A stretch of DNA of 64,000 nt from Diphasiastrum complanatum (Eukaryota > Streptophyta > Lycopodiopsida > Lycopodiales > Lycopodiaceae). The notes under the pieces were generated by a model that ran no database searches, was not told the origin of the DNA, and saw nothing but the letters and a program-made list of their open reading frames with translations. The stretch covers positions 42,090,597 to 42,154,596 of the forward strand of contig CM055099.1 of the NCBI GenBank assembly GCA_029204225.1, written 5' to 3'. This document shows, in pieces, positions 3,086-55,032 of the stretch; within the stretch, counting starts at the first letter, position 1; every line of letters begins with the position of its first letter. The position numbers were made by a program, and so were the translations under genes.

Positions 3086-3124
3086 ATCCCAGGCTAAATG
3101 AGTAAACACCAGTATTCTCCTTCT

Positions 3125-10329: not shown

Positions 10330-10379
10330 AATCTGTATGTGGGTCCATTTGATGAGATCTTGTTTTTGTGATTTTTTGG

Positions 10380-11110: not shown

Positions 11111-11119
11111 AAGCTTGCA

Positions 11120-13966: not shown

Positions 13967-13971
13967 ATTAT
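13967..13971. other. Target-site duplication ATTAT, left
   Basis: ATTAT directly precedes the first LTR and matches the five bases directly after the last LTR at 45535-45539. This is the 5-bp duplication typical of copia integrases. Confidence 0.88.
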
Positions 13972-14627
13972 TGTGAAAATTGTCAACATTTCCTAGCTAG
14001 TTTGAGGCCTAAATTGGCTAAAATTGTAAATAGTTTTGGTTCTGGAGTTTCACACGTGTGAACCAGGCCACAATGTTTTTATTTACTGTATTTTTTCAGT
14101 ATGATGAAGTGTCAAACTTCATACCCTTCAAAATGAGACCATTTTGATGTATTTTGGTCATATAAGCCATTTTTAGCTATTTTTCCTATATAGGGAATAT
14201 CTAGGGTCAAGTACCTTCTAGAGAGAGGAGAGAGAGTCATCTTCCTCATCCATAAATAGTAGGGAAGTCGTGGAGAACAGGTTGGAGAAACCTTTTGTAT
14301 GCTTCATTGAGATCAATAGATCATTGTCATTGTTTCTTCCTCCATTGAGAGCATTGTTGTGTGTATTGTCTTCAAGCTATTGTGTATGATCTTAGGTGCT
14401 TTCCAAAAGTGGTAGGCTGATGTATTATGGACTGTATAATGCTATTTTGGGCCGCACTTGATGTTTATGGAAGTTTCCATTTGTGATAAATGTATTTTTG
14501 ATCAAGTTCTTTGCATTCTAGGTAGCATAGAATGTGTTGCCAATTCCTAGCTTATGTAGTTTGGAGTGCAAGCATTCAAGCCAATGATCTTGGAGTTTAG
14601 ATCCACTTAGGATCTGTATTTTTCACA
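13972..14627 (+). mobile_element. Copia copy 1, 5' LTR (656 bp)
   Basis: TGTGAAAA...TTTTCACA, with 8-bp terminal inverted ends. It contains a perfect 14-bp palindrome TTCACACGTGTGAA (14049-14062, G-box/ABRE-like core ACACGTGT) and a TATATAG box at 14187-14193. By eye it is identical to the 3' LTRs of copies 1 and 3. It differs from the 5' LTRs of copies 2 and 3 at offsets near 140, 303 and 521. Confidence 0.95.
14187..14193 (+). promoter_or_regulatory. TATA box of copia LTR
   Basis: TATATAG in the middle of the LTR, a likely promoter defining the U3/R border. The same box occurs in all six LTRs of the array. Confidence 0.55.
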
Positions 14628-14639
14628 TGGTATCAGAGC
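14628..14639 (+). other. Primer-binding site, copy 1
   Basis: TGGTATCAGAGC abuts the LTR and is complementary to the 3' end of plant initiator tRNA-Met, the usual copia primer. Confidence 0.93.
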
Positions 14640-15800
14640 TGGTTGGCTTCTATTTACAGTAAGTATTCCATTTTTGGTGATATTTGGATGTTTGATCAAG
14701 TTCTAGCATGATTTTGCATTGCTTTGTTGATCAAATCTTACTAACCTTTGTTTTGTGAGTTGAACTTGTGGATCAAAAGCATATTTCAGGTCTATTGAAG
14801 ATCAGAGGCTGAAAAGAAACTATTTTGGATCAGATCATAACACCTAATCATTTGTTATTGTGAGGCTTGTGCATATTCAATACTAACAATGTTCTTTTCA
14901 ATCCTATTGTTGACAATCTCCATTCTTGGATGAACACTCTCCTTAAGTGGATGAAACTTCTCCTTAAGTGGATGACAAATGCTCTTTTGAGTGAGTTGTA
15001 ATTCTCCTAAAGGCTGAGCAAAGCTCCCATTTGGATGAAAGATCCCCTTTTTTGGGTGAACATATTGTAAGCTCCATTGTGAAGAGCATATTGTAAAGAT
15101 TGTCATCAATTTTGGCATAATTTTTTGGTGTACTTTGTTGAGCATGTAAGTAACTCTCCTTATGTAATTTGATTGGAGCATTTGCTGGAAGGTGTTAACC
15201 ATTATGCAAGTGTGTTTTCAGGTTCTTAACAGGTTGAGGAACATTCTCATGTGAAGTGATCTTAGATCTACATCTAAACACCAAGATTTGACAAGATAGT
15301 GAAGCTAGTCTTGTGATTCACTAAGTGTGCTCATTCATTCACCTCTAAATCTTGTATTTATCACTTGCTGGAGTTTATAAACTTTTAGAAGTGTGGTTTA
15401 CATGTGGTTTTACAGGTTGAATCAATATCTTAGTGTGTTGATCATATGTTGATCAAGTTTGTTCATTACTAGGTAATCTTGGCATCCTAGTTTTGGGTAT
15501 TTTCTAAGAATGCAAGTAACTCTTCACACCATAACTTGATTTGGTCACTTGCTGGAAAGTTTGAGAGCTTAAGCAAGAGTGTGTTCAGGTTGGTTTGATT
15601 TTGTAATCCATTCTTAGTGTGTGCAAAGTGTTGCATGTGTTTCAATCTTCCTTTCTATGCTTGGAAACCATCTAGGTTCAAGATAGAAGTGTTTTAGGGT
15701 CCTAAATCTTCATAGATCTCTTTATCTATCATTTGTTGAGAGAAAAGTGAGTGCTAAGTGCTTTAGGACAAAACCTAAAAGTTGAAGAAACATTAGAATC
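14640..15800 (+). other. Copia leader, copy 1, with degenerate repeats
   Basis: A 1.16-kb untranslated leader. A strong 5' splice-site-like ACAGTAAGTAT (GT at 14659) lies just after the primer site. Three related modules carry CTTGCTGGA followed by acceptor-like ends TTTTCAG (15221), TTTACAG (15415) and GTTCAG (15588), each followed by GTT. Blocks built on TTAAGTGGATGA repeat near 14930-14990. A leader intron is possible but unproven. Confidence 0.6.
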
Positions 15801-18800
15801 ATGGCTTCCAATGGTGGGATCATGCTAGAGTCTAGTGAAAGGTTGAGTTCATCAAACTACTCTACTTGGAAAGTGAGGATGGAGTCCTTACTTGAGTTGA
15901 ATGAACTCATGGACATAGTTGCAGAAATTGAAGAGAGACCTCTCACACTTCAAGAGCAACAAAGGTTTGATAAGAAGGCCAAAAGGGCTCTTCATATCAT
16001 TAAAATGAATGTTACAAATGAACTTCTCAAGGAAGTTGGAAAGTGTCAAAGTGCAAGTGAGGCATGGAATGCCTTAAAGAAGCTCTTTGAATCAAAGTCC
16101 ACATCTAGGGTATTGACCCTAAGGAGACAAATATTTTCTAGTAGACAAAGAGAGGGTGAAAGTGCTCATGCATTTATCTTGAGAGTTAAGTCCCTAAGTG
16201 ATGATTTAGCATGCATTGATGAGAACATAAAAGATGGTGAAATAGTCCAAGTTATGTTGAATGGTTTGCTAAATGAACATGCTAACCTTGTGCAAAGTTT
16301 TGCCATTCAAAGAGTCTTTCCAAGTGTGGTTGACTTGCAAGAAATCTTATTGGATGAAGAACATAGGTTGCAATCAAAGCTTGATGGTGCATCCTTGCAA
16401 GGTGGAGGTGAAGAGGCTTTCTTCACAAAAGGCAAATTCAAGGGCAAAGGTAAAGGCAAAGGGAAATGGTCCAAAGGTGGTAACTTTGATCATGATGATC
16501 ACTCTTCCTCTTCCTCTTCTACTAAGAACAATAAGTCAAAGTTCAAGTGCTTTTATTGTGGGATAAAAGGTCATTTTGCAAATGAATGTTATAAGAAGAA
16601 AAGAGAGCAAGGAGAGAGGCAAGGAAATCTTACAATAGATGAGGAAGAACATAACACATGTGAATCACTTGTTATGACTTCAAGTTTGTTAGCCAACATA
16701 GATGATAATGATCCTTGGTGGATTGATAGTGGAGCCTCATCTCACATGACAAGACATAAGGAATACTTTACATCCTTATTGTCTTATGAGGGAGAAGGTA
16801 ACATCATCTACACTGCAAATGATGGTCAATGTGACATCAAAGGCATAGGCACTATTCCTATTTCCCTTTCAACAAATAGGAAAGCAAATCTTGAAAATGT
16901 TTTGTACATTCCTTCAATCACTAAGAATTTGCTTAGTGTAAGTCAAATGATTGACAAAGGACTTGATGTGGAGTTCATTGGAGATGCATGTTTGATAAGT
17001 AAATGTGGATCCTTGATTGCTCAAGGTAGGAGGCATGGTAAACTTTTCAAGCTTGATGCATGTGTGATCTCTAATCATGAAGGATGTATGGCTAGGGAGC
17101 AATTGACAAACCAAGAAGTTTGGCACAAGAGGTTGGGCCATCCCAACTTCAAATCTTTGGAGGTAATGGCAAAGAAAGAGCTTGTTCTTGGTCTCCCTAA
17201 AAGTCTTGTTGCAAACAATAGTGTTTGTGAACATTGTGCCTTGTCCAAATCTCATAGACTTGCTTATTCTAGATCTACTTCTAGATCTAAAGAAGCTTTT
17301 CAACTTGTGCATTCTGATATTCATTCTTCTAGTACAACTAGCAATGGTGGGGCAAAGATGTATGCAACTTTCATTGATGACTTTAGTAGGTATACTTGGA
17401 TCTATCTTCTTAAAAGTAAGGATGAAGTGTTTGCTGCATTTGTCAAGTTCAAGAATGAAATGGAAAACCAATTCAATACAAAGATCAAATGCTTAAGATC
17501 TGATAATGGAGGGGAATACACCTCAAATAGGTTCAAAGACTTTTGTATAGCACATGGGATTAAGAGGGAGATGTCTAGTCCTAGGACTCCACAACAGAAT
17601 GGAGTGGCCGAGAGGAAGAATAGAACCCTTTGTGAATGTGCCAAGGCAATGAGACTACATGCTAATCTTGCTAAGTCTTTTTGGGGGGAAGCTTTAGCAT
17701 GTGCTAACTATCTATGTAATAGATGGACAAGTGCTCCTTGGATGGTAAAACTCCTCATGAGGTTCTTTATGGTAGAAGGCCGAGTGTCAAGCATTGTAGG
17801 ATCTTTGGATGTACATGTTTTGTCAATATCACACTTGATGATAGAACTAAAGAAGATCCTTCATCAAAGAAGGGTGTGTTTGTTGGCTATAGTGAAGTAA
17901 GCAAGGCTTACAAAGTGTACATTCCTTCTACAAAGAAAGTTGTCATAAGTAGGGATGTCATCTTTCATGAAGAGAATGTTTCCAATGTTGTTGATGTTGA
18001 TGTTGATGTGCCTACTAATCATCATGATGTGCAAGATGTCTTGGATGAAGATGGAGATGCCACTCCAAAGCAAACTTCAAGGAAGACTCAAAGGCAAAGG
18101 GCTAAGCCATCAAGGCTAACCTATGATGAAAAAGGAAAGCAAGTGGTGGACAACTCTAACTTTGCTTTTCTTACCTCTTTTGATGAACCAACTTGTGTAG
18201 GTGAAGCAATTCAAAAGAAGGAATGGATCCAAGCCATGGATCATGAGCATCAAGCACTCATCAAAAGCAACACATGGAGGTTGGTAAAGCTTCCAAAGGA
18301 CAAGAAGGCAATTGGTTGTAAGTGGATCTTCAAGATCAAGACAAATCAAGATGGATCAATCAACAAGTACAAGGCAAGGTTGGTGGCAAAGGGGTATGCT
18401 CAAGAATATGGTATTGACTATGATGAGACCTTTGCACCCGTGGCAAAGATGGTAACTATTCGAATCCTAATCTCTCTTGCAACTCTTTATGATTGGGATA
18501 TGTGGCAAATGGATGTTACTAATGCCTTCTTGAATGGTGATCTTGAAGAAGATATTTACATGGAGCAACCCGAGGGCTATGTTTCACATGATGAGCCTAA
18601 TCATGTGTGCTATCTCCAAAAGAGTTTGTATGGGCTAAAGCAAGCACCAAGGAGTTGGTATGCTAAGCTCAATTCCTTCTTACTTTCTCAAAACTTTGTT
18701 ATGAGTGAGTATGATCATTCTCTCTACTTTAGATTGAATGAAAATGATATCACTTTACTTTTGATCTATGTTGATGACATTATCTTAAGTGGTGGTAACA

Positions 18801-19753
18801 TTTTAGATATAGATGAAATCAAGATGGCACTCAAAAGAGAGTTTGAAATTCAAGATCTTGGTAAACTTCATTATATCTTAGGAATAGAGATTATTAGAAC
18901 TTCTAAATCTACATTCATATGTCAAGAAAAGTATGTTAACTCTATTCTAAAAAGGTTTCATATGGAAGATTGTAAAGTTGTTTCTACTCCTATGGAATCA
19001 AATGTAAAGCTAACTACAAGAAGTAATGAAAGATCCTTCAAGGACATTACTCTCTATAGAAAGCTAATAGGATCTCTTATATGGTTAACCATCACAAGAC
19101 CTGATCTAAGCTTTGTGGTTGGTAAACTAAGTCAATTTATGCAAGATCCTAGTGAGGCTCATTGGAAGCTAGGAAAGAGAGTACTTAGATACATCTCGGG
19201 ATCTAGAGATTTTGGCATCTTGTATGGAGGTACTACACCTAACCTTTGTGGATTTTCAGATTCAGATTTTGCAGGTGATAAAATGGATAGGAAGTCAACA
19301 AGTGCCTTTGCAATCTATCTTGGAGATGGAGTGGTCTCATGGCTATCAAAGAAGCAACCAACTATCTCTCTATCTTCCACCGAAGCCGAGTACAAGGCAT
19401 TAACAACATGCACCAAGGAGATTCTTTGGATCAAGAGGATGTTATTGGATCTTCACTTGCTGGAACCAGAGAAGACTCCAATCATACTTTGTGATAACCT
19501 TTCAGCCCAAAGCTTGGCAAGCAATCCTGTTTTTCATGCAAGGAGCAAGCACATTGAGATTGCTCACCATTTTGTGAGAGATCAAGTCATTGCCAAAGAG
19601 GTGGAGCTTCAACATGTCTCTTCAAAGGAGTGTGTGGCTGATATCTTCACCAAACCATTGGGAAAGGACCTATATTTAATGCATAGATCTAATCTTGGAA
19701 TGTGCTCAAAGACTATGTTGAAACTAGCATCCAATGTTGAAGAGGGAGTGTGA
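15801..19753 (+). pseudogene. Copia Gag-Pol, copy 1 (one-base frameshift)
   Basis: Same polyprotein as copy 2: Gag, CCHC knuckle (CFYCGIKGHFANEC), protease WIDSGASSH, integrase, RT with YVDD, RNase H. One T is missing near 17735 (TGCTCC where copies 2 and 3 have TGCTTCC), after the integrase catalytic core. The first frame therefore ends at 17900 after 699 residues, and RT/RNase H continue in the second frame to 19753. A Phe replaces Leu near 16314. Apart from the lesion the sequence is almost identical to copy 2, so inactivation is recent. The final stop lies inside the 3' LTR. Confidence 0.95.
19739..19748 (+). other. Polypurine tract, copy 1
   Basis: GAAGAGGGAG directly precedes the 3' LTR. 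It also encodes the last residues of Pol. Confidence 0.8.
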
Positions 19754-20404
19754 AAATTGTCAACATTTCCTAGCTAGTTTGAGGCCTAAATTGGCTAAAA
19801 TTGTAAATAGTTTTGGTTCTGGAGTTTCACACGTGTGAACCAGGCCACAATGTTTTTATTTACTGTATTTTTTCAGTATGATGAAGTGTCAAACTTCATA
19901 CCCTTCAAAATGAGACCATTTTGATGTATTTTGGTCATATAAGCCATTTTTAGCTATTTTTCCTATATAGGGAATATCTAGGGTCAAGTACCTTCTAGAG
20001 AGAGGAGAGAGAGTCATCTTCCTCATCCATAAATAGTAGGGAAGTCGTGGAGAACAGGTTGGAGAAACCTTTTGTATGCTTCATTGAGATCAATAGATCA
20101 TTGTCATTGTTTCTTCCTCCATTGAGAGCATTGTTGTGTGTATTGTCTTCAAGCTATTGTGTATGATCTTAGGTGCTTTCCAAAAGTGGTAGGCTGATGT
20201 ATTATGGACTGTATAATGCTATTTTGGGCCGCACTTGATGTTTATGGAAGTTTCCATTTGTGATAAATGTATTTTTGATCAAGTTCTTTGCATTCTAGGT
20301 AGCATAGAATGTGTTGCCAATTCCTAGCTTATGTAGTTTGGAGTGCAAGCATTCAAGCCAATGATCTTGGAGTTTAGATCCACTTAGGATCTGTATTTTT
20401 CACA
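19749..20404 (+). mobile_element. Copia copy 1, 3' LTR (656 bp)
   Basis: Same haplotype as the 5' LTR of copy 1, TGTGAAAA...TTTTCACA. It is followed by ATAGG, not by the ATTAT that precedes the 5' LTR, so this element is chimaeric or rearranged. Confidence 0.95.
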
Positions 20405-21776
20405 ATAGGTGCCTTCTAGCCTTAGTTAGGCCCAAAACCATTTTTGCCTTGCAAAATTGAACTGGTTCTTCAATGTGAAGTTTCTTGATGAAGAATTGCA
20501 TTTCATGCACTTCGGGTCCAATCTCCATCTCAAAATGAAGATTTTAAAGAAATCGAAGGCCCAATGGCCCTTCAGACCCCTTCAACCTTTCATGGATCCC
20601 TTCACTTGCCATCTAATGGCTTACCCACATCGAATGGATCACATTGGTATTCAATAGCCCGATCATGACCATCCATCCTTTTGGGACCTCATCCAACGAT
20701 GCCTATGCCATCTGCGTGCCTAATGCCTTTCATGCAGCCACTATTCACTTTAGCATGCTTTGGCCTGGCGTGAGTGAGGGCATGCGTTGGCCCGCAGCCC
20801 CTCTTGCCTTCTTTTTTGACTTCTCTCTTCTTGAAAGCTGCAAGAAATAAGCCACTTGGAAATGTGCTTCATTTTCACAAATATCAACTCCTCTGTTCCA
20901 TGGCCATCAGCGGCCCTTTGACATCCTCCAATATATACTAGGGTGACCTACTGTGTAAATGTGCTCTACATGAAAAGATTTATCTCTTCCCTGCTAGAAA
21001 CCCTAGTCTTTAAAAAAATGGTTGTCTCAAAGAGCTGACTATTGCACATCCAAATTTCCATGGCTGGCCACGGCCATCTAGCCTCAGTTCAATCATGCTT
21101 GGGTGCCAATCCCTAGCCACTAATAGCTCCAAAACTGGGGTTGTGTGGAGAAAGATCCACCATTTTTCACTTCCAAACCCTAGTTGTCCTTTCTCTTCCA
21201 TAGCTGAGAAGATGGACAATTGCTCCTTCTGTGCTTCATGGATGACTCTATCCTTTTGAGATAAGCTTGGCCAAAGTAGAATGATTTTGGATAAAATTTT
21301 ACAGTGCCCAATTCTGTCAAGTACAGAGAAAGATCCGTGACTTTCCGTTTTTCTTCAACTAGGCTACCTTTTGGCAATTGACAAAACTGCTCCTTTCTCC
21401 TCACACTATAAATGGATTTCAAAATCCTCTCAGCCCAGAGTTGCCACTACCTTGCTCCACCTTTTGATCTACTTCACTCAGTAGTTGAAGGACTACCGAA
21501 GAAGTTCTAGCCAATTTTCTGTCACAACCGTTTTCTGAAGCAACCCACCGTTTTGAGAAATTTCTTCATGAATTCTCCACGCAATCCACCTACGACGATC
21601 GTTCTGATCTTCCCCGAAGCTCCAATTGAAGGAACTTTGCTGTCTCTAGCCATACGGACTACCGATACCCCCCTGTACGAGGTCCTCTCTCCTGAGACAC
21701 TTTGAGTGTTATTTTTCCTAGTGAAAGACACTATCCCATAGCTTCACCAGATCATACATTCCTGAATTACTCTAAC

Positions 21777-21788
21777 GCTTTGATATCA
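21777..21788 (-). other. Possible copia primer-binding site in spacer 1
   Basis: The minus strand reads TGATATCAAAGC, matching 10 of 12 bases of the initiator tRNA-Met site, preceded by a TTTCAAC LTR-end-like sequence. It may mark an old minus-strand LTR to its right. No pol is found to support it. The same site lies in spacer 2. Confidence 0.3.
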
Positions 21789-22352
21789 AGTTGAAATTTT
21801 GATAGGATCTAGTGCAGTATGCAAATCACATCACACAATCACCATAGCCACTCCTCACAAGCTCTCATAGACAACACAACAAAAGTTAATGATTACAAAG
21901 AGAAAACTGTACATATAGCAAAAGCTCCAACATGCATGGGCTCGACAAGTGTCAACTCACTGAAATAGGGACTTGTCTAACCAATAGGCCCAACATGGGC
22001 TAAAAGACTGACAAACTCAAGACATGCCCTTGAGTATAGCAAGTGCCGTAAAAAATATATTGTACAGGCTAATTTCTCTACGTGTGGCTACTCGGCTAAT
22101 CCAAGTAGCCGTCTACGGGATCAGTGCCCGATCAATATATCCTAACGGGTCACGTCCCAATCACAACCATATACAGTAAACCAAATAAACTGTACAATAA
22201 TTACATCATCATATTTAGAGCTTATACTAATGAATCCGATTAGAATTGATTTCTAACTAATTTCATATTTAGTTGCAGTGGCAGAGTGTTCTCCACCCAA
22301 GCTACTTCCAACTGGAGAAATGGACTTAGAAATCATAGATTAGCATGACTCA

Positions 22353-22378
22353 CAACTTGAGAAATGATTCTCAAGTTG
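22353..22378. repeat. Perfect inverted repeat in spacer
   Basis: Arms CAACTTGAGAA and TTCTCAAGTTG (11 bp) with a 4-base loop ATGA; the same hairpin is in spacer 2 near 34918-34943. Function unknown. Confidence 0.7.
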
Positions 22379-25300
22379 ATATTGATAAAAAATTGGTCTC
22401 CCTTGATGTGGATGAGACACATGTACAAATTTTTTTAATGGAAATATATTTATAGTTTTCTATGGTTGTTCTTACATGTTTTTTTTCCTATTATTAATCC
22501 AGGTTATTATTGATTCATTTTCAATTGCTATGGTGTTCCTACATGTTTGTTTTTCATAGCCTTGGTCTGCCTTGCCTTTACCTTGGTTTTTTGAATAGGT
22601 TTAGAAGGTGATCTCAGTGAATCTTTGCCACAACCAATCCAAACATGCGACATATGTTCACACAGATTTGCTATAGTAAAGCTTTATTGAGATCATCTTC
22701 TAAACAAGGGCAAGCGTCAATTCGATATCTAATTGTAGTGGTCACTGAAGTTCAAGTGCCCGAAGATCTCCCCAATGGAGATAATGCATTTCCTGCAGGA
22801 GACAATGAATCTTGTTATCGAAAACTCATGTTATCTAGTTGCAATTACATTGTGTTCTACACCATGGAAATGGAGATCATAGAAATGAAAGAGCCTCATA
22901 GAAAAAGTGGTTCATATATTTTTAAAAATGATGTATACAAAAAATTGTATTACATAATACAAAATTCCATTGTTCATAATCTATGGATCTTCAATTTCGA
23001 TGGATGTTCCAATGTCTTTGCACTTTATATGCTCTTCCTGCCTTACTCTTACACGCACAAGAAAAATTGTTTTAGTTAATATATACTTTAAAACTGATTC
23101 ACTTAGAATAAGAAAAGAAGGAATATTTTCATATGGCATAACGTACCTTTACACCATTCAATTGAAATTGATAGTATTGAGGTAGATCGAATTACAACAT
23201 GTCTAGTTCTGATCGAATGTGATTGAGACACCAATGATCTTCCTCAACCTCAACCATTGCAAGAATGTTGTCATTCCTTTTCACTGTTATTTGAAGTTGC
23301 TCTTGAGGGTTTATACCAAAATCTTGATCAAGTGGCTTCCAAACATTTTTGCATTTAATCCATCTTCTATAATACAGCAGCAAAGTGAGCATTTGTTTTT
23401 TGATGTGATATCTAAATGTCATTGATGAGTAACATACTCTGCACTCAACTTGCTGATTTTGCTTTGTATCCCAATCATCTATAAAAGAAACAATTTAGAA
23501 TGGAAATGAGCACAAAGGAATTGCGGATCAAAGCCACGTGTTATGAGCTATCTCTGAGTAACTGTAACTCTGCCTGAATCAAACACTTCTGCTAATAAGC
23601 AGTAAGCACAATAGCAAACCCTAAATCAATCCTAACGAACTGAGCTAGAATGCTCAAGAGTGTTCAAGCTTGAAAGCTTTAGAGAGATGCTAACTATGCT
23701 TCAATACTTGATCATTCAAAAACGATCTAAGATGATCTAAGATGATAACAACCTATAACAAGATTCCCTCACGTCCAAGCATATCCAACTATCCAATAAG
23801 TCCTGAAAGCTGATCCCCATTCATTTTCCATGCTTCAAGCACAAGAGTCTACCAAGGACTTAATGAATGAATGTACACAAACTCACCATAGGCTATACTT
23901 GAGTAGCTTGCCATCTCCCAGAGATACTGATGATGATTTGCCTCTCCTACACCTCATGCAGGCTCAACTTCCCATGCTTGACATTGCCAACTCTGATTTG
24001 ACCAGTATATAGGCCTCCCACCAAAGGAGCCTATCTCCCCAACACATCCATCATGTCAATCCAAACCAAAGCAAATGCAAACTGGATCCACTATCGTGAT
24101 GAACAACTCACCCACGATCCATAGCATATAAGGTCGGATAGCTCCTGAACCCTGTACCCTATACCATCTGATTACCAAGTATCCATTATCCACTGATAGC
24201 TCCCCAAGAATCTGTCCACCTGTAGTGCAACTAGACTAGAACTGGATCTAACCAAAAGCTACATCTTGCTTACCAAATAATGATGGATAGAAACAACATG
24301 TGATGCCAACCTGGAGATCACTGTGCATATAACCATGCACCTCACCTGATACTCGCCAAAGTATTAGCTGTCACTCCTTGAGCAACCATCTCCATCCTTG
24401 CTGGCTCACAACCATGGGCATGTTGGACCCACATCATCCTGTAATGCACTCCATGCCCTCAGGATATTTACCACCCCAGGTACACTCCATGGCCACCTAT
24501 CTCCAAGTAGGCTTGACTCGTCCCTAGGTCACCACACATGATGCACCAGCTAAAGAACATCATCTATACATCAAATGACATATCATACCTAAGCAACTGT
24601 AGCATCTCCTTGAGTGCCACCCCAATGGACTCGTCATCCACATATTATGCTCACCTGATGTCTTTGATCTTGGTCACCATCCTGCTAGATAAGCCGAACT
24701 CCAAAGCCTCACTAGCTCCACCTAACTCCTAGCATCTGCTTGCTCTCCCTGGCTATGTGCCACTCGACACCATGCCAATGCAAGCTCATCCATGAGTCAC
24801 CGTTCATGGGATCCCGAGACCACCATCTCCCTAATCGTACTGAGGTATATGGCTCTGAGTGACTTCCTCTAGGCTTATCCCTGATCTCACCATCTGAGAA
24901 TCTGCACCATGTAAATTCTAACACGTGTGTCAAGCTAGACTCCTGTAAATATAGCCAAATGCATGAAAGCTATAGATAGATTATCCACGCTCGTGATGTA
25001 GATGCCTCCCCATCGATGCCAATGTCCAAAACTGCCCCCCTGCTGTAATGCCAGCCTGTACTCCCAAATGAGCACACCGTGAAGTCCTCGCCATTAGTGT
25101 CTCCTGTAGTAGATCGCTAGCAAAACACTCACCATAGTGTTTGCCCTCCGATCACACCCCGTGCGATTATCATCAACTGGCTGTCAAAGCTTCATGCTTT
25201 GCCCATTTGCTTTTGCAGTGTTCTGATTCCATCATGAATTCCACCTGTAAGTCCTGTCCATCAAATGACTCTAAGTTCAATATGAAATAGCTACCCCCTG

Positions 25301-26536: not shown

Positions 26537-27191
26537 TGTGAAAATTGTCAACATTTCCTAGCTAGTTTGAGGCCTAAATTGGCTAAAATTGTAAATAGTT
26601 TTGGTTCTGGAGTTTCACACGTGTGAACCAGGCCACAATGTTTTTATTTACTGTATTTTTTCAGTATGATGAAGTGACAAACTTCATACCCTTCAAAATG
26701 AGACCATTTTGATGTATTTTGGTCATATAAGCCATTTTTAGCTATTTTTCCTATATAGGGAATATCTAGGGTCAAGTACCTTCTAGAGAGAGGAGAGAGA
26801 GTCATCTTCCTCATCCATAAATAGTAGGGAAGTCGTGGAAAACAGGTTGGAGAAACCTTTTGTATGCTTCATTGAGATCAATAGATCATTGTCATTGTTT
26901 CTTCCTCCATTGAGAGCATTGTTGTGTGTATTGTCTTCAAGCTATTGTGTATGATCTTAGGTGCTTTCCAAAAGTGGTAGGCTGATGTATTATGGACTGT
27001 ATAATGCTATTTTGGGCCGCACTTGATGTTTATGGAAGTTTCCATTTGTGATAAATGCTTTTTGATCAAGTTCTTTGCATTCTAGGTAGCATAGAATGTG
27101 TTGCCAATTCCTAGCTTATGTAGTTTGGAGTGCAAGCATTCAAGCCAATGATCTTGGAGTTTAGATCCACTTAGGATCTGTATTTTTCACA
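26537..27191 (+). mobile_element. Copia copy 2, 5' LTR (655 bp)
   Basis: Carries the second LTR haplotype (GTGACAAAC, GGAAAACAGG, AAATGCTTTTT), one base shorter than the other form. It is shared with the 5' LTR of copy 3 only, and preceded by ATAGG. Confidence 0.95.
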
Positions 27192-27203
27192 TGGTATCAG
27201 AGC
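27192..27203 (+). other. Primer-binding site, copy 2
   Basis: TGGTATCAGAGC directly after the LTR, complementary to initiator tRNA-Met. Confidence 0.93.
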
Positions 27204-32969: not shown

Positions 32970-35900
32970 ATAGGTGCCTTCTAGCCTTAGTTAGGCCCAA
33001 AACCATTTTTGCCTTGCAAAATTGAACTGGTTCTTCAATGTGAAGTTTCTTGATGAAGAATTGCATTTCATGCACTTCGGGTCCAATCTCCATCTCAAAA
33101 TGAAGATTTTAAAGAAATCGAAGGCCCAATGGCCCTTCAGACCCCTTCAACCTTTCATGGATCCCTTCACTTGCCATCTAATGGCTTACCCACATCGAAT
33201 GGATCACATTGGTATTCAATAGCCCGATCATGACCATCCATCCTTTTGGGACCTCATCCAACGATGCCTATGCCATCTGCGTGCCTAATGCCTTTCATGC
33301 AGCCACTATTCACTTTAGCATGCTTTGGCCTGGCGTGAGTGAGGGCATGCGTTGGCCCGCAGCCCCTCTTGCCTTCTTTTTTGACTTCTCTCTTCTTGAA
33401 AGCTGCAAGAAATAAGCCACTTGGAAATGTGCTTCATTTTCACAAATATCAACTCCTCTGTTCCATGGCCATCAGCGGCCCTTTGACATCCTCCAATATA
33501 TACTAGGGTGACCTACTGTGTAAATGTGCTCTACATGAAAAGATTTATCTCTTCCCTGCTAGAAACCCTAGTCTTTAAAAAAATGGTTGTCTCAAAGAGC
33601 TGACTATTGCACATCCAAATTTCCATGGCTGGCCACGGCCATCTAGCCTCAGTTCAATCATGCTTGGGTGCCAATCCCTAGCCACTAATAGCTCCAAAAC
33701 TGGGGTTGTGTGGAGAAAGATCCACCATTTTTCACTTCCAAACCCTAGTTGTCCTTTCTCTTCCATAGCTGAGAAGATGGACAATTGCTCCTTCTGTGCT
33801 TCATGGATGACTCTATCCTTTTGAGATAAGCTTGGCCAAAGTAGAATGATTTTGGATAAAATTTTACAGTGCCCAATTCTGTCAAGTACAGAGAAAGATC
33901 CGTGACTTTCCGTTTTTCTTCAACTAGGCTACCTTTTGGCAATTGACAAAACTGCTCCTTTCTCCTCACACTATAAATGGATTTCAAAATCCTCTCAGCC
34001 CAGAGTTGCCACTACCTTGCTCCACCTTTTGATCTACTTCACTCAGTAGTTGAAGGACTACCGAAGAAGTTCTAGCCAATTTTCTGTCACAACCGTTTTC
34101 TGAAGCAACCCACCGTTTTGAGAAATTTCTTCATGAATTCTCCACGCAATCCACCTACGACGATCGTTCTGATCTTCCCCGAAGCTCCAATTGAAGGAAC
34201 TTTGCTGTCTCTAGCCATACGGACTACCGATACCCCCTTGTACGAGGTCCTCTCTCCTGAGACACTTTGAGTGTTATTTTTCCTAGTGAAAGACACTATC
34301 CCATAGCTTCACCAGATCATACATTCCTGAATTACTCTAACGCTTTGATATCAAGTTGAAATTTTGATAGGATCTAGTGCAGTATGCAAATCACATCACA
34401 CAATCACCATAGCCACTCCTCACAAGCTCTCATAGACAACACAACAAAAGTTAATGATTACAAAGAGAAAACTGTACATATAGCAAAAGCTCCAACATGC
34501 ATGGGCTCGACAAGTGTCAACTCACTGAAATAGGGACTTGTCTAACCAATAGGCCCAACATGGGCTAAAAGACTGACAAACTCAAGACATGCCCTTGAGT
34601 ATAGCAAGTGCCGTAAAAAATATATTGTACAGGCTAATTTCTCTACGTGTGGCTACTCGGCTAATCCAAGTAGCCGTCTACGGGATCAGTGCCCGATCAA
34701 TATATCCTAACGGGTCACGTCCCAATCACAACCATATACAGTAAACCAAATAAACTGTACAATAATTACATCATCATATTTAGAGCTTATACTAATGAAT
34801 CCGATTAGAATTGATTTCTAACTAATTTCATATTTAGTTGCAGTGGCAGAGTGTTCTCCACCCAAGCTACTTCCAACTGGAGAAATGGACTTAGAAATCA
34901 TAGATTAGCATGACTCACAACTTGAGAAATGATTCTCAAGTTGATATTGATAAAAAATTGGTCTCCCTTGATGTGGATGAGACACATGTACAAATTTTTT
35001 TAATGAAAATATATTTATAGTTTTCTATGGTTGTTCTTACATGTTTTTTTTCCTATTATTAATCCAGGTTATTATTGATTCATTTTCAATTGCTATGGTG
35101 TTCCTACATGTTTGTTTTTCATAGCCTTGGTCTGCCTTGCCTTTACCTTGGTTTTTTGAATAGGTTTAGAAGGTGATCTCAGTGAATCTTTGCCACAACC
35201 AATCCAAACATGCGACATATGTTCACACAGATTTGCTATAGTAAAGCTTTATTGAGATCATCTTCTAAACAAGGGCAAGCGTCAATTCGATATCTAATTG
35301 TAGTGGTCACTGAAGTTCAAGTGCCCGAAGATCTCCCCAATGGAGATAATGCATTTCCTGCAGGAGACAATGAATCTTGTTATCGAAAACTCATGTTATC
35401 TAGTTGCAATTACATTGTGTTCTACACCATGGAAATGGAGATCATAGAAATGAAAGAGCCTCATAGAAAAAGTGGTTCATATATTTTTAAAAATGATGTA
35501 TACAAAAAATTGTATTACATAATACAAAATTCCATTGTTCATAATCTATGGATCTTCAATTTCGATGGATGTTCCAATGTCTTTGCACTTTATATGCTCT
35601 TCCTGCCTTACTCTTACACGCACAAGAAAAATTGTTTTAGTTAATATATATTTTAAAACTGATTCACTTAGAATAAGAAAAGAAGGAATATTTTCATATG
35701 GCATAACGTACCTTTACACCATTCAATTGAAATTGATAGTATTGAGGTAGATCGAATTACAACATGTCTAGTTCTGATCGAATGTGATTGAGACACCAAT
35801 GATCTTCCTCAACCTCAACCATTGCAAGAATGTTGTCATTCCTTTTCACTGTTATTTGAAGTTGCTCTTGAGGGTTTATACCAAAATCTTGATCAAGTGG

Positions 35901-38900
35901 CTTCCAAACATTTTTGCATTTAATCCATCTTCTATAATACAGCAGCAAAGTGAGCATTTGTTTTTTGATGTGATATCTAAATGTCTTTGATGAGTAACAT
36001 ACTCTGCACTCAACTTGCTGATTTTGCTTTGTATCCCAATCATCTATAAAAGAAACAATTTAGAATGGAAATGAGCACAAAGGAATTGCGGATCAAAGCC
36101 ACGTGTTATGAGCTATCTCTGAGTAACTGTAACTCTGCCTGAATCAAACACTTCTGCTAATAAGCAGTAAGCACAATAGCAAACCCTAAATCAATCCTAA
36201 CGAACTGAGCTAGAATGCTCAAGAGTGTTCAAGCTTGAAAGCTTTAGAGAGATGCTAACTATGCTTCAATACTTGATCATTCAAAAACGATCTAAGATGA
36301 TCTAAGATGATAACAACCTATAACAAGATTCCCTCACGTCCAAGCATATCCAACTATCCAATAAGTCCTGAAAGCTGATCCCCATTCATTTTCCATGCTT
36401 CAAGCACAAGAGTCTACCAAGGACTTAATGAATGAATGTACACAAACTCACCATAGGCTATACTTGAGTAGCTTGCCATCTCCCAGAGATACTGATGATG
36501 ATTTGCCTCTCCTACACCTCATGCAGGCTCAACTTCCCATGCTTGACATTGCCAACTCTGATTTGACCAGTATATAGGCCTCCCACCAAAGGAGCCTATC
36601 TCCCCAACACATCCATCATGTCAATCCAAACCAAAGCAAATGCAAACTGGATCCACTATCGTGATGAACAACTCACCCACGATCCATAGCATATAAGGTC
36701 GGATAGCTCCTGAACCCTGTACCCTATACCATCTGATTACCAAGTATCCATTATCCACTGATAGCTCCCCAAGAATCTGTCCACCTGTAGTGCAACTAGA
36801 CTAGAACTGGATCTAACCAAAAGCTACATCTTGCTTACCAAATAATGATGGATAGAAACAACATGTGATGCCAACCTGGAGATCACTGTGCATATAACCA
36901 TGCACCTCACCTGATACTCGCCAAAGTATTAGCTGTCACTCCTTGAGCAACCATCTCCATCCTTGCTGGCTCACAACCATGGGCATGTTGGACCCACATC
37001 ATCCTGTAATGCACTCCATGCCCTCAGGATATTTACCACCCCAGGTACACTCCATGGCCACCTATCTCCAAGTAGGCTTGACTCGTCCCTAGGTCACCAC
37101 ACATGATGCACCAGCTAAAGAACATCATCTATACATCAAATGACATATCATACCTAAGCAACTGTAGCATCTCCTTGAGTGCCACCCCAATGGACTCGTC
37201 ATCCACATATTATGCTCACCTGATGTCTTTGATCTTGGTCACCATCCTGCTAGATAAGCCGAACTCCAAAGCCTCACTAGCTCCACCTAACTCCTAGCAT
37301 CTGCTTGCTCTCCCTGGCTATGTGCCACTCGACACCATGCCAATGCAAGCTCATCCATGAGTCACCGTTCATGGGATCCCGAGACCACCATCTCCCTAAT
37401 CGTACTGAGGTATATGGCTCTGAGTGACTTCCTCTAGGCTTATCCCTGATCTCACCATCTGAGAATCTGCACCATGTAAATTCTAACACGTGTGTCAAGC
37501 TAGACTCCTGTAAATATAGCCAAATGCATGAAAGCTATAGATAGATTATCCACGCTCGTGATGTAGATGCCTCCCCATCGATGCCAATGTCCAAAACTGC
37601 CCCCCTGCTGTAATGCCAGCCTGTACTCCCAAATGAGCACACCGTGAAGTCCTCGCCATTAGTGTCTCCTGTAGTAGATCGCTAGCAAAACACTCACCAT
37701 AGTGTTTGCCCTCCGATCACACCCCGTGCGATTATCATCAACTGGCTGTCAAAGCTTCATGCTTTGCCCATTTGCTTTTGCAGTGTTCTGATTCCATCAT
37801 GAATTCCACCTGTAAGTCCTGTCCATCAAATGACTCTAAGTTCAATATGAAATAGCTACCCCCTGATGATCATCCCATGTCATCCTATAGTCCTATCCCT
37901 ATCAGGTATCCCAATGCCATCCCTGATCACAAAGATCTAAGGATCTACCCTATAGTGCCCCACCTGTATTCCCCCAAGCTAGCTCCAAAGCTGCTCTTGT
38001 GAATGATTCCAAACAACTCCCTTAGAATACACTAAGATGTGAACTCCAAAGCCACCATCAAGTCCCTCACATGATGTGACATGCCGATATCCCTCCAAGT
38101 GAACCTGTGAGATCTTTCAAGGCCCAAACCAAATGATCTGCACCCTGTCATCATTGGAATCTTCATCCCTGATGCAATACTGATACGACAAATTGACTTG
38201 ACTTACTCAGAACATGCAGTTGAAGTGTATCTCCTCGATGACAAACCTGATACACTGCTCCACAACTAATTTTATTTGATCAAAATTGACTTACCTACTA
38301 CAAAACCGCAAAATCATCACACTTACCACTCTCCAAGAGTCTCCAAAGTGTGATCCTTGACCCTTTCTTCATCCTCTGCATGTCCCACACACAGCTCATC
38401 CAATGCAAGTCCGCTATCTTGCCCAATGGCTTCCAACTGGCACCACCTCACACTTCCATCACCCGTGACCGTCAAAATGTGTGTAGCTCCAAGCTAGCCC
38501 ATATTTCCCTCCGAACAAAAAATTTCCAGGCTACCGATGCGTGTGTCGATGCAATTATCACCTGACTAGACAATGTCACTGCTGATCATACCTGTGAGAG
38601 CGTTCCTCCAAAATGCCACTTGACATTGGTCGATTCTAACCCCAAGAGTTGAACCTCATCATGAGAATTTTTTATCCGTAACTGCATATCATGCCTACCT
38701 CTCACTTGTGATTGCTTGCCCTCTCAAAATTGTTGCCAATGATGAGTAGTCATGCCGCCAAACTGCATTTCCGTCCCCAATACTAGCTTTCTCCACAATT
38801 TCGCTGCCATTCATTCCCATGCTGCATTTACCGCTTCCAATCACCCTGTTACCCTGTCAGGACTAAGTAATAATGACTTAGAATTGATTATGGTACGATC

Positions 38901-39101
38901 TTGTAGTAGGTTTCACCAGCCAAACATTGCTCCAAATTTGGCCCTACGGTACCCAAATAGCAAATGTAGCCCATCACTAGTCACCCGCACTCCGCTCAAC
39001 TCCTCAAAATACTTTCTCCCTACTTTGTGACGTTGCTCTGTCCGTTGGCTTTGAGCAGCCAGTTTCAGGGGTCATTTTGGCCCAAGGATGGCCAAAATAG
39101 G
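32970..39101. repeat. Spacer 2 (6,132 bp), flanked by ATAGG
   Basis: Second copy of spacer 1, the same length to the base, starting and ending with ATAGG (39097-39101). It contains the same 144-codon unassigned frame (35210-35644), hairpin and LTR-like traces. No gene is recognised. Confidence 0.9.
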
Positions 39102-39756
39102 TGTGAAAATTGTCAACATTTCCTAGCTAGTTTGAGGCCTAAATTGGCTAAAATTGTAAATAGTTTTGGTTCTGGAGTTTCACACGTGTGAACCAGGCCA
39201 CAATGTTTTTATTTACTGTATTTTTTCAGTATGATGAAGTGACAAACTTCATACCCTTCAAAATGAGACCATTTTGATGTATTTTGGTCATATAAGCCAT
39301 TTTTAGCTATTTTTCCTATATAGGGAATATCTAGGGTCAAGTACCTTCTAGAGAGAGGAGAGAGAGTCATCTTCCTCATCCATAAATAGTAGGGAAGTCG
39401 TGGAAAACAGGTTGGAGAAACCTTTTGTATGCTTCATTGAGATCAATAGATCATTGTCATTGTTTCTTCCTCCATTGAGAGCATTGTTGTGTGTATTGTC
39501 TTCAAGCTATTGTGTATGATCTTAGGTGCTTTCCAAAAGTGGTAGGCTGATGTATTATGGACTGTATAATGCTATTTTGGGCCGCACTTGATGTTTATGG
39601 AAGTTTCCATTTGTGATAAATGCTTTTTGATCAAGTTCTTTGCATTCTAGGTAGCATAGAATGTGTTGCCAATTCCTAGCTTATGTAGTTTGGAGTGCAA
39701 GCATTCAAGCCAATGATCTTGGAGTTTAGATCCACTTAGGATCTGTATTTTTCACA
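39102..39756 (+). mobile_element. Copia copy 3, 5' LTR (655 bp)
   Basis: Same haplotype as the 5' LTR of copy 2, including the one-base shortening. Preceded by ATAGG although the 3' end of this copy is followed by ATTAT. Confidence 0.95.
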
Positions 39757-39768
39757 TGGTATCAGAGC
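39757..39768 (+). other. Primer-binding site, copy 3
   Basis: TGGTATCAGAGC directly after the LTR. Confidence 0.93.
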
Positions 39769-40929
39769 TGGTTGGCTTCTATTTACAGTAAGTATTCCAT
39801 TTTTGGTGATATTTGGATGTTTGATCAAGTTCTAGCATGATTTTGCATTGCTTTGTTGATCAAATCTTACTAACCTTTGTTTTGTGAGTTGAACTTGTGG
39901 ATCAAAAGCATATTTCAGGTCTATTGAAGATCAGAGGCTGAAAAGAAACTATTTTGGATCAGATCATAACACCTAATCATTTGTGATTGTGAGGCTTGTG
40001 CATATTCAATACTAACAATGTTCTTTTCAATCCTATTGTTGACAATCTCCATTCTTGGATGAACACTCTCCTTAAGTGGATGAAACTTCTCCTTAAGTGG
40101 ATGACAAATGCTCTTTTGAGTGAGTTGTAATTCTCCTAAAGGCTGAGCAAAGCTCCCATTTGGATGAAAGATCCCCTTTTTTGGGTGAACATATTGTAAG
40201 CTCCATTGTGAAGAGCATATTGTAAAGATTGTCATCAATTTTGGCATAATTTTTTGGTGTACTTTGTTGAGCATGTAAGTAACTCTCCTTATGTAATTTG
40301 ATTGGAGCATTTGCTGGAAGGTGTTAACCATTATGCAAGTGTGTTTTCAGGTTCTTAACAGGTTGAGGAACATTCTCATGTGAAGTGATCTTAGATCTAC
40401 ATCTAAACACCAAGATTTGACAAGATAGTGAAGCTAGTCTTGTGATTCACTAAGTGTGCTCATTCATTCACCTCTAAATCTTGTATTTATCACTTGCTGG
40501 AGTTTATAAACTTTTAGAAGTGTGGTTTACATGTGGTTTTACAGGTTGAATCAATATCTTAGTGTGTTGATCATATGTTGATCAAGTTTGTTCATTACTA
40601 GGTAATCTTGGCATCCTAGTTTTGGGTATTTTCTAAGAATGCAAGTAACTCTTCACACCATAACTTGATTTGGTCACTTGCTGGAAAGTTTGAGAGCTTA
40701 AGCAAGAGTGTGTTCAGGTTGGTTTGATTTTGTAATCCATTCTTAGTGTGTGCAAAGTGTTGCATGTGTTTCAATCTTCCTTTCTATGCTTGGAAACCAT
40801 CTAGGTTCAAGATAGAAGTGTTTTAGGGTCCTAAATCTTCATAGATCTCTTTATCTATCATTTGTTGAGAGAAAAGTGAGTGCTAAGTGCTTTAGGACAA
40901 AACCTAAAAGTTGAAGAAACATTAGAATC
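39769..40929 (+). other. Copia leader, copy 3
   Basis: Same leader as copy 2, including TTTGTGATTG. Confidence 0.7.
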
Positions 40930-43900
40930 ATGGCTTCCAATGGTGGGATCATGCTAGAGTCTAGTGAAAGGTTGAGTTCATCAAACTACTCTACTTGGAA
41001 AGTGAGGATGGAGTCCTTACTTGAGTTGAATGAACTCATGGACATAGTTGCAGAAATTGAAGAGAGACCTCTCACACTTCAAGAGCAACAAAGGTTTGAT
41101 AAGAAGGCCAAAAGGGCTCTTCATATCATTAAAATGAATGTTACAAATGAACTTCTCAAGGAAGTTGGAAAGTGTCAAAGTGCAAGTGAGGCATGGAATG
41201 CCTTAAAGAAGCTCTTTGAATCAAAGTCCACATCTAGGGTATTGACCCTAAGGAGACAAATATTTTCTAGTAGACAAAGAGAGGGTGAAAGTGCTCATGC
41301 ATTTATCTTGAGAGTTAAGTCCCTAAGTGATGATTTAGCATGCATTGATGAGAACATAAAAGATGGTGAAATAGTCCAAGTTATGTTGAATGGTTTGCTA
41401 AATGAACATGCTAACCTTGTGCAAAGTTTTGCCATTCAAAGAGTCTTGCCAAGTGTGGTTGACTTGCAAGAAATCTTATTGGATGAAGAACATAGGTTGC
41501 AATCAAAGCTTGATGGTGCATCCTTGCAAGGTGGAGGTGAAGAGGCTTTCTTCACAAAAGGCAAATTCAAGGGCAAAGGTAAAGGCAAAGGGAAATGGTC
41601 CAAAGGTGGTAACTTTGATCATGATGATCACTCTTCCTCTTCCTCTTCTACTAAGAACAATAAGTCAAAGTTCAAGTGCTTTTATTGTGGGATAAAAGGT
41701 CATTTTGCAAATGAATGTTATAAGAAGAAAAGAGAGCAAGGAGAGAGGCAAGGAAATCTTACAATAGATGAGGAAGAACATAACACATGTGAATCACTTG
41801 TTATGACTTCAAGTTTGTTAGCCAACATAGATGATAATGATCCTTGGTGGATTGATAGTGGAGCCTCATCTCACATGACAAGACATAAGGAATACTTTAC
41901 ATCCTTATTGTCTTATGAGGGAGAAGGTAACATCATCTACACTGCAAATGATGGTCAATGTGACATCAAAGGCATAGGCACTATTCCTATTTCCCTTTCA
42001 ACAAATAGGAAAGCAAATCTTGAAAATGTTTTGTACATTCCTTCAATCACTAAGAATTTGCTTAGTGTAAGTCAAATGATTGACAAAGGACTTGATGTGG
42101 AGTTCATTGGAGATGCATGTTTGATAAGTAAATGTGGATCCTTGATTGCTCAAGGTAGGAGGCATGGTAAACTTTTCAAGCTTGATGCATGTGTGATCTC
42201 TAATCATGAAGGATGTATGGCTAGGGAGCAATTGACAAACCAAGAAGTTTGGCACAAGAGGTTGGGCCATCCCAACTTCAAATCTTTGGAGGTAATGGCA
42301 AAGAAAGAGCTTGTTCTTGGTCTCCCTAAAAGTCTTGTTGCAAACAATAGTGTTTGTGAACATTGTGCCTTGTCCAAATCTCATAGACTTGCTTATTCTA
42401 GATCTACTTCTAGATCTAAAGAAGCTTTTCAACTTGTGCATTCTGATATTCATTCTTCTAGTACAACTAGCAATGGTGGGGCAAAGATGTATGCAACTTT
42501 CATTGATGACTTTAGTAGGTATACTTGGATCTATCTTCTTAAAAGTAAGGATGAAGTGTTTGCTGCATTTGTCAAGTTCAAGAATGAAATGGAAAACCAA
42601 TTCAATACAAAGATCAAATGATTAAGATCTGATAATGGAGGGGAATACACCTCAAATAGGTTCAAAGACTTTTGTATAGCACATGGGATTAAGAGGGAGA
42701 TGTCTAGTCCTAGGACTCCACAACAGAATGGAGTGGCCGAGAGGAAGAATAGAACCCTTTGTGAATGTGCCAAGGCAATGAGACTACATGCTAATCTTGC
42801 TAAGTCTTTTTGGGGGGAAGCTTTAGCATGTGCTAACTATCTATGTAATAGATGGACAAGTGCTTCCTTGGATGGTAAAACTCCTCATGAGGTTCTTTAT
42901 GGTAGAAGGCCGAGTGTCAAGCATTGTAGGATCTTTGGATGTACATGTTTTGTCAATATCACACTTGATGATAGAACTAAAGAAGATCCTTCATCAAAGA
43001 AGGGTGTGTTTGTTGGCTATAGTGAAGTAAGCAAGGCTTACAAAGTGTACATTCCTTCTACAAAGAAAGTTGTCATAAGTAGGGATGTCATCTTTCATGA
43101 AGAGAATGTTTCCAATGTTGTTGATGTTGATGTTGATGTGCCTACTAATCATCATGATGTGCAAGATGTCTTGGATGAAGATGGAGATGCCACTCCAAAG
43201 CAAACTTCAAGGAAGACTCAAAGGCAAAGGGCTAAGCCATCAAGGCTAACCTATGATGAAAAAGGAAAGCAAGTGGTGGACAACTCTAACTTTGCTTTTC
43301 TTACCTCTTTTGATGAACCAACTTGTGTAGGTGAAGCAATTCAAAAGAAGGAATGGATCCAAGCCATGGATCATGAGCATCAAGCACTCATCAAAAGCAA
43401 CACATGGAGGTTGGTAAAGCTTCCAAAGGACAAGAAGGCAATTGGTTGTAAGTGGATCTTCAAGATCAAGACAAATCAAGATGGATCAATCAACAAGTAC
43501 AAGGCAAGGTTGGTGGCAAAGGGGTATGCTCAAGAATATGGTATTGACTACGATGAGACCTTTGCACCCGTGGCAAAGATGGTAACTATTCGAATCCTAA
43601 TCTCTCTTGCAACTCTTTATGATTGGGATATGTGGCAAATGGATGTTACTAATGCCTTCTTGAATGGTGATCTTGAAGAAGATATTTACATGGAGCAACC
43701 CGAGGGCTATGTTTCACATGATGAGCCTAATCATGTGTGCTATCTCCAAAAGAGTTTGTATGGGCTAAAGCAAGCACCAAGGAGTTGGTATGCTAAGCTC
43801 AATTCCTTCTTACTTTCTCAAAACTTTGTTATGAGTGAGTATGATCATTCTCTCTACTTTAGATTGAATGAAAATGATATCACTTTACTTTTGATCTATG

Positions 43901-44883
43901 TTGATGACATTATCTTAAGTGGTGGTAACATTTTAGATATAGATGAAATCAAGATGGCACTCAAAAGAGAGTTTGAAATTCAAGATCTTGGTAAACTTCA
44001 TTATATCTTAGGAATAGAGATTATTAGAACTTCTAAATCTACATTCATATGTCAAGAAAAGTATGTTAACTCTATTCTAAAAAGGTTTCATATGGAAGAT
44101 TGTAAAGTTGTTTCTACTCCTATGGAATCAAATGTAAAGCTAACTACAAGAAGTAATGAAAGATCCTTCAAGGACATTACTCTCTATAGAAAGCTAATAG
44201 GATCTCTTATATGGTTAACCATCACAAGACCTGATCTAAGCTTTGTGGTTGGTAAACTAAGTCAATTTATGCAAGATCCTAGTGAGGCTCATTGGAAGCT
44301 AGGAAAGAGAGTACTTAGATACATCTCGGGATCTAGAGATTTTGGCATCTTGTATGGAGGTACTACACCTAACCTTTGTGGATTTTCAGATTCAGATTTT
44401 GCAGGTGATAAAATGGATAGGAAGTCAACAAGTGCCTTTGCAATCTATCTTGGAGATGGAGTGGTCTCATGGCTATCAAAGAAGCAACCAACTATCTCTC
44501 TATCTTCCACCGAAGCCGAGTACAAGGCATTAACAACATGCACCAAGGAGATTCTTTGGATCAAGAGGATGTTATTGGATCTTCACTTGCTGGAACCAGA
44601 GAAGACTCCAATCATACTTTGTGATAACCTTTCAGCCCAAAGCTTGGCAAGCAATCCTGTTTTTCATGCAAGGAGCAAGCACATTGAGATTGCTCACCAT
44701 TTTGTGAGAGATCAAGTCATTGCCAAAGAGGTGGAGCTTCAACATGTCTCTTCAAAGGAGTGTGTGGCTGATATCTTCACCAAACCATTGGGAAAGGACC
44801 TATATTTAATGCATAGATCTAATCTTGGAATGTGCTCAAAGACTATGTTGAAACTAGCATCCAATGTTGAAGAGGGAGTGTGA
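40930..44883 (+). pseudogene. Copia Gag-Pol, copy 3 (one nonsense codon)
   Basis: Identical architecture to copy 2 but with TGA at 42619-42621 where the other copies have TGC (Cys). Translation stops at residue 563, just before the second catalytic Asp of integrase (RSDNGGEY). RT and RNase H remain open downstream, to 44883, in the same frame. Gag and protease could still be made, so the copy might act as a Gag donor. The Gag knuckle has the common CFYC form. The 3' third matches copy 1 more closely than copy 2. Confidence 0.95.
44869..44878 (+). other. Polypurine tract, copy 3
   Basis: GAAGAGGGAG immediately before the 3' LTR. Confidence 0.8.
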
Positions 44884-45534
44884 AAATTGTCAACATTTCC
44901 TAGCTAGTTTGAGGCCTAAATTGGCTAAAATTGTAAATAGTTTTGGTTCTGGAGTTTCACACGTGTGAACCAGGCCACAATGTTTTTATTTACTGTATTT
45001 TTTCAGTATGATGAAGTGTCAAACTTCATACCCTTCAAAATGAGACCATTTTGATGTATTTTGGTCATATAAGCCATTTTTAGCTATTTTTCCTATATAG
45101 GGAATATCTAGGGTCAAGTACCTTCTAGAGAGAGGAGAGAGAGTCATCTTCCTCATCCATAAATAGTAGGGAAGTCGTGGAGAACAGGTTGGAGAAACCT
45201 TTTGTATGCTTCATTGAGATCAATAGATCATTGTCATTGTTTCTTCCTCCATTGAGAGCATTGTTGTGTGTATTGTCTTCAAGCTATTGTGTATGATCTT
45301 AGGTGCTTTCCAAAAGTGGTAGGCTGATGTATTATGGACTGTATAATGCTATTTTGGGCCGCACTTGATGTTTATGGAAGTTTCCATTTGTGATAAATGT
45401 ATTTTTGATCAAGTTCTTTGCATTCTAGGTAGCATAGAATGTGTTGCCAATTCCTAGCTTATGTAGTTTGGAGTGCAAGCATTCAAGCCAATGATCTTGG
45501 AGTTTAGATCCACTTAGGATCTGTATTTTTCACA
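44879..45534 (+). mobile_element. Copia copy 3, 3' LTR (656 bp)
   Basis: By eye identical to the 5' LTR of copy 1, which carries the matching ATTAT. Those two LTRs are therefore the likely original pair of one resident insertion. Confidence 0.95.
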
Positions 45535-45539
45535 ATTAT
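45535..45539. other. Target-site duplication ATTAT, right
   Basis: Matches 13967-13971 across 31.6 kb. Confidence 0.88.

Positions 45540-54959: not shown

Positions 54960-55032
<73 letters not shown>

Follow-up and report, generated by a model that had tools for sequence, protein, structure and literature searches.

Reinsertion of circular DNA is often invoked, and to our knowledge few plant cases are known at the base level. A cattle case, reportedly the colour-sidedness locus, is said to involve a large segment and different chromosomes. Human circular-intermediate segmental duplications are recognised by a swapped block order between donor and copy and by microhomology at the fusion point (PMC7450558), and PMC7188851 likewise proposes that circles form and are then reinserted; these papers and those cited below are compared on portions of their texts. 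The cattle translocations, as quoted in PMC7450558, have a permuted copy, a 2-bp fusion microhomology and a non-homologous insertion. Region B of wine yeasts is proposed to have spread by extrachromosomal circular DNA (eccDNA), with circle intermediates explaining several forms of this one segment (PMC3053389). Here an array of three Ty1/copia long terminal repeat (LTR) retrotransposons separated by two copies of a spacer was analysed in the clubmoss Diphasiastrum complanatum; the window is the whole 64,000-bp stretch C8:42090597-42154596 of the 1.74-Gb assembly. The best reading of the array, which we hold to be moderately probable, is that a circle, or a circle-like intermediate, was reinserted by homologous recombination into a resident copia element. 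No report of an array of this form was found in a literature search limited to open-licence papers, mostly at listing level.

Self-comparison of the window showed that the array (E1-S1-E2-S2-E3) extends from 13972 to 45534 with a period of 12,565 bp. The elements E1 (13972-20404), E2 (26537-32969) and E3 (39102-45534) and the two 6.13-kb spacers S1 (20405-26536) and S2 (32970-39101) all lie on the forward strand. Both outer borders are ATTAT (13967-13971 and 45535-45539); all four inner element/spacer borders are ATAGG, found at 20405-20409 and 26532-26536 in S1 and at 32970-32974 and 39097-39101 in S2. The array bounds (13967-45539) and border pentamers of the original prediction were correct to the base. 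The borders of E1 and E3 are mismatched and reciprocal (ATTAT/ATAGG versus ATAGG/ATTAT), and those of E2 are matched (ATAGG/ATAGG). Unequal crossing over between two neighbouring copia insertions was rejected, as it gives the wrong spacer ends. The spacers differ from each other at 4 sites, and the pairwise differences among the three elements are 12, 8 and 8 sites.

The repeated element, a Ty1/copia retrotransposon, is 6,433 bp long, and its LTRs measure 655-656 bp. The LTRs are direct, start with TG and end with CA, and the target duplication is 5 bp; the flanks of seven other copies were also inspected. The polyprotein frame is unbroken in E2; E1 has a one-base deletion that breaks the frame, and E3 has one in-frame stop. 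The domains of the E2 polyprotein are Retrotran_gag_2, gag_pre-integrs, rve (499-597) and RVT_2 (824-1066), so that the integrase precedes the reverse transcriptase, which is the copia order. Degraded copia remnants also lie next to the array, at window 47744-49777 (reverse strand) and 57411-58071 (forward strand); part of an LTR in the former shares about 74% identity with the LTR of the array. Tandem LTR retrotransposons in rice likewise place several LTR elements within one pair of target duplications; however, as far as the available text of PMC11899658 describes them, they share their internal LTRs and have neither a host spacer nor a second target duplication inside. Neighbours in the present array are instead separated by the 6.13-kb spacers. 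Three same-strand LTR matches at C1:34709267-34720827, each 5,766 bp from the next, show the spacing expected of two tandem copia elements sharing an LTR.

The two pentamers are true target duplications, because the haplotype represented by contig C419 has one unbroken ATTAT and 9 of 10 copies of a host repeat have no interruption at the ATAGG site. On C419, window sequence 6760-13971 continues directly into 45535-46082 with ATTAT present once, which shows the empty site. The spacer sequence around the element is part of a dispersed repeat, whose long matches are 84-87% identical. The spacer end and the spacer start adjoin across one pentamer in nine of the ten copies (ATAGG in three, 1-2 bases off in six); two of the nine are possibly duplicates of each other, and the alignment of the tenth stops short of the site. 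These uninterrupted copies indicate that ATAGG is the duplication of a real insertion. The insertions at ATTAT and ATAGG are here termed A and B, respectively.

It is very unlikely that the array is an assembly artefact, in which reads of different copia copies, or of an abundant circle, were joined across a near-identical 6.4-kb repeat. The LTR abounds in the genome (one pattern has 5,487 matches), its copies are nearly identical and the borders are recombinant, all of which would suit such an error; but the array copies carry the differences given above (4 sites between the spacers, 8-12 between pairs of elements), the target duplications match exactly, and the other haplotype has a clean empty site. 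Moreover, the spacer contains a fusion junction that is about 2.8-3.3 kb away from copia sequence and independent of the copia repeat.

The source of the spacer was searched in the genome with S1, and the best 40 of 11,907 candidates were scored. Among these, at least 99% identity to the spacer was found beyond S1 and S2 only at C8:42064708-42069226 (locus D) and on C419. Locus D lies upstream of the array in the same orientation and ends about 35 kb before the start of E1. It contains spacer positions 3347-5651 (99.09% identity) directly followed by 1137-3354 (99.59%), whereas the spacer has these two blocks the other way round; the order on C419 is also swapped (3347-5673, then 2839-3354). 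C419, which aligns to C8:42057683-42074637 at 98.4-99.1% identity, is regarded as this region's other haplotype. The block order of the donor is therefore circularly permuted in the spacer copy, as in the segmental duplications that arise through circular intermediates. The main prediction, that the spacer would be a permuted copy of sequence found elsewhere in the genome, is borne out by locus D; the arrangement that would contradict a circle, namely the spacer in array order between two copia elements at a separate locus, was absent from the 40 scored candidates.

The predicted breakpoint between array and donor was also found. At this junction (J), the right end of D (...AACA) is joined to its left end (TAACAAG...) across ACCTA, a pentamer present at both ends of D with different flanking bases on either side. 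J is located at 23751-23755 in S1 and, at the same spacer position and with identical sequence, at 36316-36320 in S2 (both forward strand). The donor ends were thus fused with little homology, i.e. the 5-bp ACCTA. Chance identity of at least 5 bp was found for 0.63% of 200,000 random position pairs in the 10-kb stretch with D, or about 0.7% when pairs less than 500 bases apart are excluded. Scans for repeats inside the spacer and for Rfam families and transfer RNAs gave nothing useful.

The same junction is expected from a circle or from a tandem duplication. B and its flanks might first have been tandemly duplicated at D and then copied into A by long-tract ectopic gene conversion; this should yield the same permuted spacer as a circle, and the donor and the array are close together. 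However, neither D haplotype contains a tandem and gene conversion would have to extend over 12-25 kb, which makes this course of events quite improbable.

The array resembles the human duplications in the swapped donor/copy order and the fusion microhomology (PMC7450558), and in all of these the circle is deduced from sequence alone (PMC7450558, PMC7188851). It differs in that the human copies, in the available text of PMC7450558, are single and have no homology at the insertion point; whereas here the point of entry is within an LTR retrotransposon that provides homology, the copy is present twice and the donor is 35 kb away. The cattle translocations are similar in the permuted copy explained by a circle and in the fusion microhomology, and differ in their non-homologous insertion (PMC7450558). 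Unlike the array, region B of wine yeasts has little or no breakpoint similarity, its insertions being described as non-homologous, and is DNA gained by horizontal transfer that includes an autonomously replicating sequence (PMC3053389).

The elements themselves were compared with seven other copies, fetched with the E1 LTR as query; two of these represent one insertion on two contigs, and all carry T at LTR site 522. Against these seven, the three array bodies have private states in common at about 1154 (poly-T length), 2173, 2382, 4830, 4832 and 5309. The last five remain private over positions 1300-5770 after the addition of three copies of the common LTR type. An exact 31-base pattern containing 4830T and 4832T matched three places in the genome, which are E1, E2 and E3; such a match would miss copies with a further change inside those bases. 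The confinement of this pattern to the array indicates that all three bodies derive from one copy.

The six LTRs of the array fall into two groups at LTR sites 141, 304 and 522, with the 5' LTRs of E2 and E3 in one and the remaining four in the other. Site 522 is C in the first group, and TA in the 5' LTR of E1 and in all three 3' LTRs. A pattern over site 522 had 5,487 matches in the genome, and the 100 matches listed, all from the first 37 Mb of C1, comprise 93 with C, 7 with T and none with TA. The LTR matches are mostly paired about 5.78 kb apart, as in the array element, and some are about 4.9 kb apart; the count therefore pools more than one element type. This clubmoss thus harbours a copia group of great abundance, in which two or more element sizes occur. 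An early reading of polarity, based on the copies fetched with the E1 LTR (all T at 522), was rejected because C is the common state among the 100 matches listed. Four C-carrying copies picked from the list for that base have C at 522 in both LTRs, and 141T and 304G in the 5' LTR; 141A and 304A were absent from every other copy read. E2 and E3 thus appear to start with an LTR of the common type bearing two private changes, and the 5' LTR of E1 and all 3' LTRs appear to be of the TA type.

Substitutions between the two LTRs of one element number 0-2 in the seven comparison copies (one also has 2 indel columns); E2 has 4 and one indel, and E3 has 3 and one. The 5' LTR of E1 and the 3' LTR of E3 are identical. 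The two LTR types suggest that two insertions recombined, which is supported but not proven; the elements are hybrids with the target duplications and the markers of two insertions, as expected of homologous recombination into a resident element, with the LTR type assigned mainly from one site. On the simplest reading, B would have given only LTR edges and A every body. Singletons number 3 in E1, 6 in E2 and 2 in E3; together with the 4 differences between S1 and S2 they fit later mutation, with a mild excess in E2 by raw count. The six differences private to E2 were also considered as the body of the ATAGG element, which was rejected since these singletons are absent from the other copies read.

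Composite retrotransposition could also be proposed for these elements, in which transcription reads through a circle or tandem of copia and spacer, and the RNA is reverse transcribed and integrated once at ATTAT. The identity of the outermost LTRs is what regenerated ends should show, and both the private variants common to all three bodies and the empty haplotype agree with a single integration. However, an element produced by reverse transcription should not have LTRs of two types, as E2 has, unless a parallel change at site 522 produced the common state. Moreover, a 31.5-kb template is very long, and the probability that the insertion would by chance fall within 35 kb of the donor is about 4 in 100,000 (70 kb of 1.74 Gb). 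Such an origin is therefore hardly credible.

The markers also locate the changes between the two types. The switch from A to B falls within the last ~133 bp of the 3' LTR in E1 and E2. For example, the last A-type marker of E1 is at element position 6300, and the end of its 3' LTR (20271-20404) would be where A-type sequence passes into the right edge of the ATAGG insertion. The return from B to A falls between element positions 522 and ~1150 in E2 and E3, after putative B-type stretches with markers at LTR 141, 304 and 522 in the 5' LTRs of E2 (26537-27058) and E3 (39102-39623), all on the forward strand. A single crossover between a full-copia circle and a resident copia was rejected in its simplest form, since the switch points differ; so was a dimer circle, as it predicts an E2 wholly of the circle type. 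The original claim that a circle of copia plus flank recombined with a resident copia therefore stands in its permuted donor, its junction and its swapped duplications, and fails in its simple one-crossover or dimer form. To account for the differing switch points, one must invoke gap repair, template switching or a circle that carried a solo LTR; the second spacer would then come from unequal crossing over or from a further round.

Reinsertion of a circle into A might accordingly have taken the following form. A Ty1/copia element would have been resident at the ATTAT site, and an allele of locus D, about 35 kb upstream, would have carried B, a copia insertion or a solo LTR, at the ATAGG site of a different repeat. 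The D segment with B would then have closed on itself at ACCTA. The simplest product of this would be an extrachromosomal circle, with a length of about 12.6 kb, or of 6.8 kb in the case of a solo-LTR B. This circle would have entered A by homologous recombination within copia sequence, either by gap repair of the opened circle on A or, with B as a solo LTR, by exchanges inside the LTRs, to give A-spacer-A. These two routes are proposed because B seems to supply only LTR edges beside the spacer. Unequal crossing over between E1 and E3, which gives an E2 with the observed ends, or a further round of entry, might then have added the second spacer. We infer a free circle as the likely intermediate, and likewise the detail of gap repair or solo LTR and the order of duplication. 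The density of LTR-paired elements, calculated from the 5,487 matches with two LTRs per element and several element types pooled, is at most about one per 0.6 Mb, and a resident copy within 35 kb is therefore unremarkable. Chimeric EVD eccDNA in Arabidopsis mutants resembles the proposed circle in joining copia and gene DNA in one circle; however, it is a small circle of a truncated element that was sequenced directly, and the available text of PMC10462705 contains no reinsertion scar of the form of this array.

Template switching, either break-induced or microhomology-mediated, could produce the same ends without a free circle. A break or stalled fork in A would be followed by a homology-guided switch to B at D, copying of the right flank, passage across ACCTA to the left flank, then to B and back to A, and unequal crossing over would again add the second spacer. 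The independent switch points of E1 and E3 would need no gap repair, and the short donor distance and the single microhomology would be explained; but three switches are required in one event, with the outgoing and the returning switch both inside copia. The sequence ends are otherwise alike for the two courses, and we regard template switching as possible, though improbable.

Several observations weigh against the reinsertion of a circle. The spacer differs from D by 0.4-0.9%, and the assembled D alleles are therefore not its exact source. Among 2,301 aligned bases, private differences number 12 in D, 7 in C419 and 5 in the spacer, with one site at which all differ; in 504 further aligned bases the numbers are 0, 0 and 1. 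The spacer is a third allele of D. The ATAGG site is deleted in both D haplotypes, differently in each (spacer 5652-1136 on C8 and 5674-2838 on C419), and insertion B is therefore not seen in place. It had been predicted that the spacer ends would adjoin across a single ATAGG at an unrearranged locus, and such adjoining ends were found across one pentamer in the nine dispersed repeat copies (exactly ATAGG in three), but not at D. An allele with a single copia at ATTAT was not seen in the one other haplotype examined (C419), which is empty. An identical switch point in E1 and E3, expected for a single crossover of a full copia circle, was not found. Only LTR 522 ties the B edge to the common type, and this site is beside a T run, where recurrent change is possible. 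Moreover, the bodies do not separate the C and T types; over positions 1300-5770 only site 1799 did, where the array matches the C type and one of six T copies.

The deletions at D have junctions of different kinds, with no clear microhomology at C8:42067009/42067010 and a short microhomology at C419:86490-86496. The ATAGG site at D may be a point of repeated breakage.

The remaining features of the window lie outside the array. A 780-bp stretch on C8 (window 5980-6759) is absent from C419, and a related inverted copy (72% identity) is found at 12482-13191. A 25-bp minisatellite with a CTCAACCG-like core forms two arrays and occurs again, inverted, about 9 kb away (window 1058-1400, 2047-2280 and 11122-11577). 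A fragment of a retrotransposon gag protein (PF03732) is located at 9713-10135 on the reverse strand. Downstream of the array, a multi-exon cytochrome P450 gene is present at 54300-56100 on the forward strand, two of its exon matches being separated by a (GA)n repeat; as pieced together, it is 94% identical to D. complanatum O6H91_08G070500.

Within a single assembly one finds the donor locus and its fusion junction, the hybrid LTRs, the two target duplications and an empty allele. We consider it an evenly balanced proposition that the array is a lycophyte germline scar of an extrachromosomal circle, locally reintegrated by homologous recombination with an abundant LTR retrotransposon as its landing pad. 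If this is true, swapped target duplications would be a general, genome-wide barcode of circle reintegration. Mismatched target duplications around LTR elements can be scanned for in any assembly, and the rate of homology-driven circle reinsertion would thereby become measurable.

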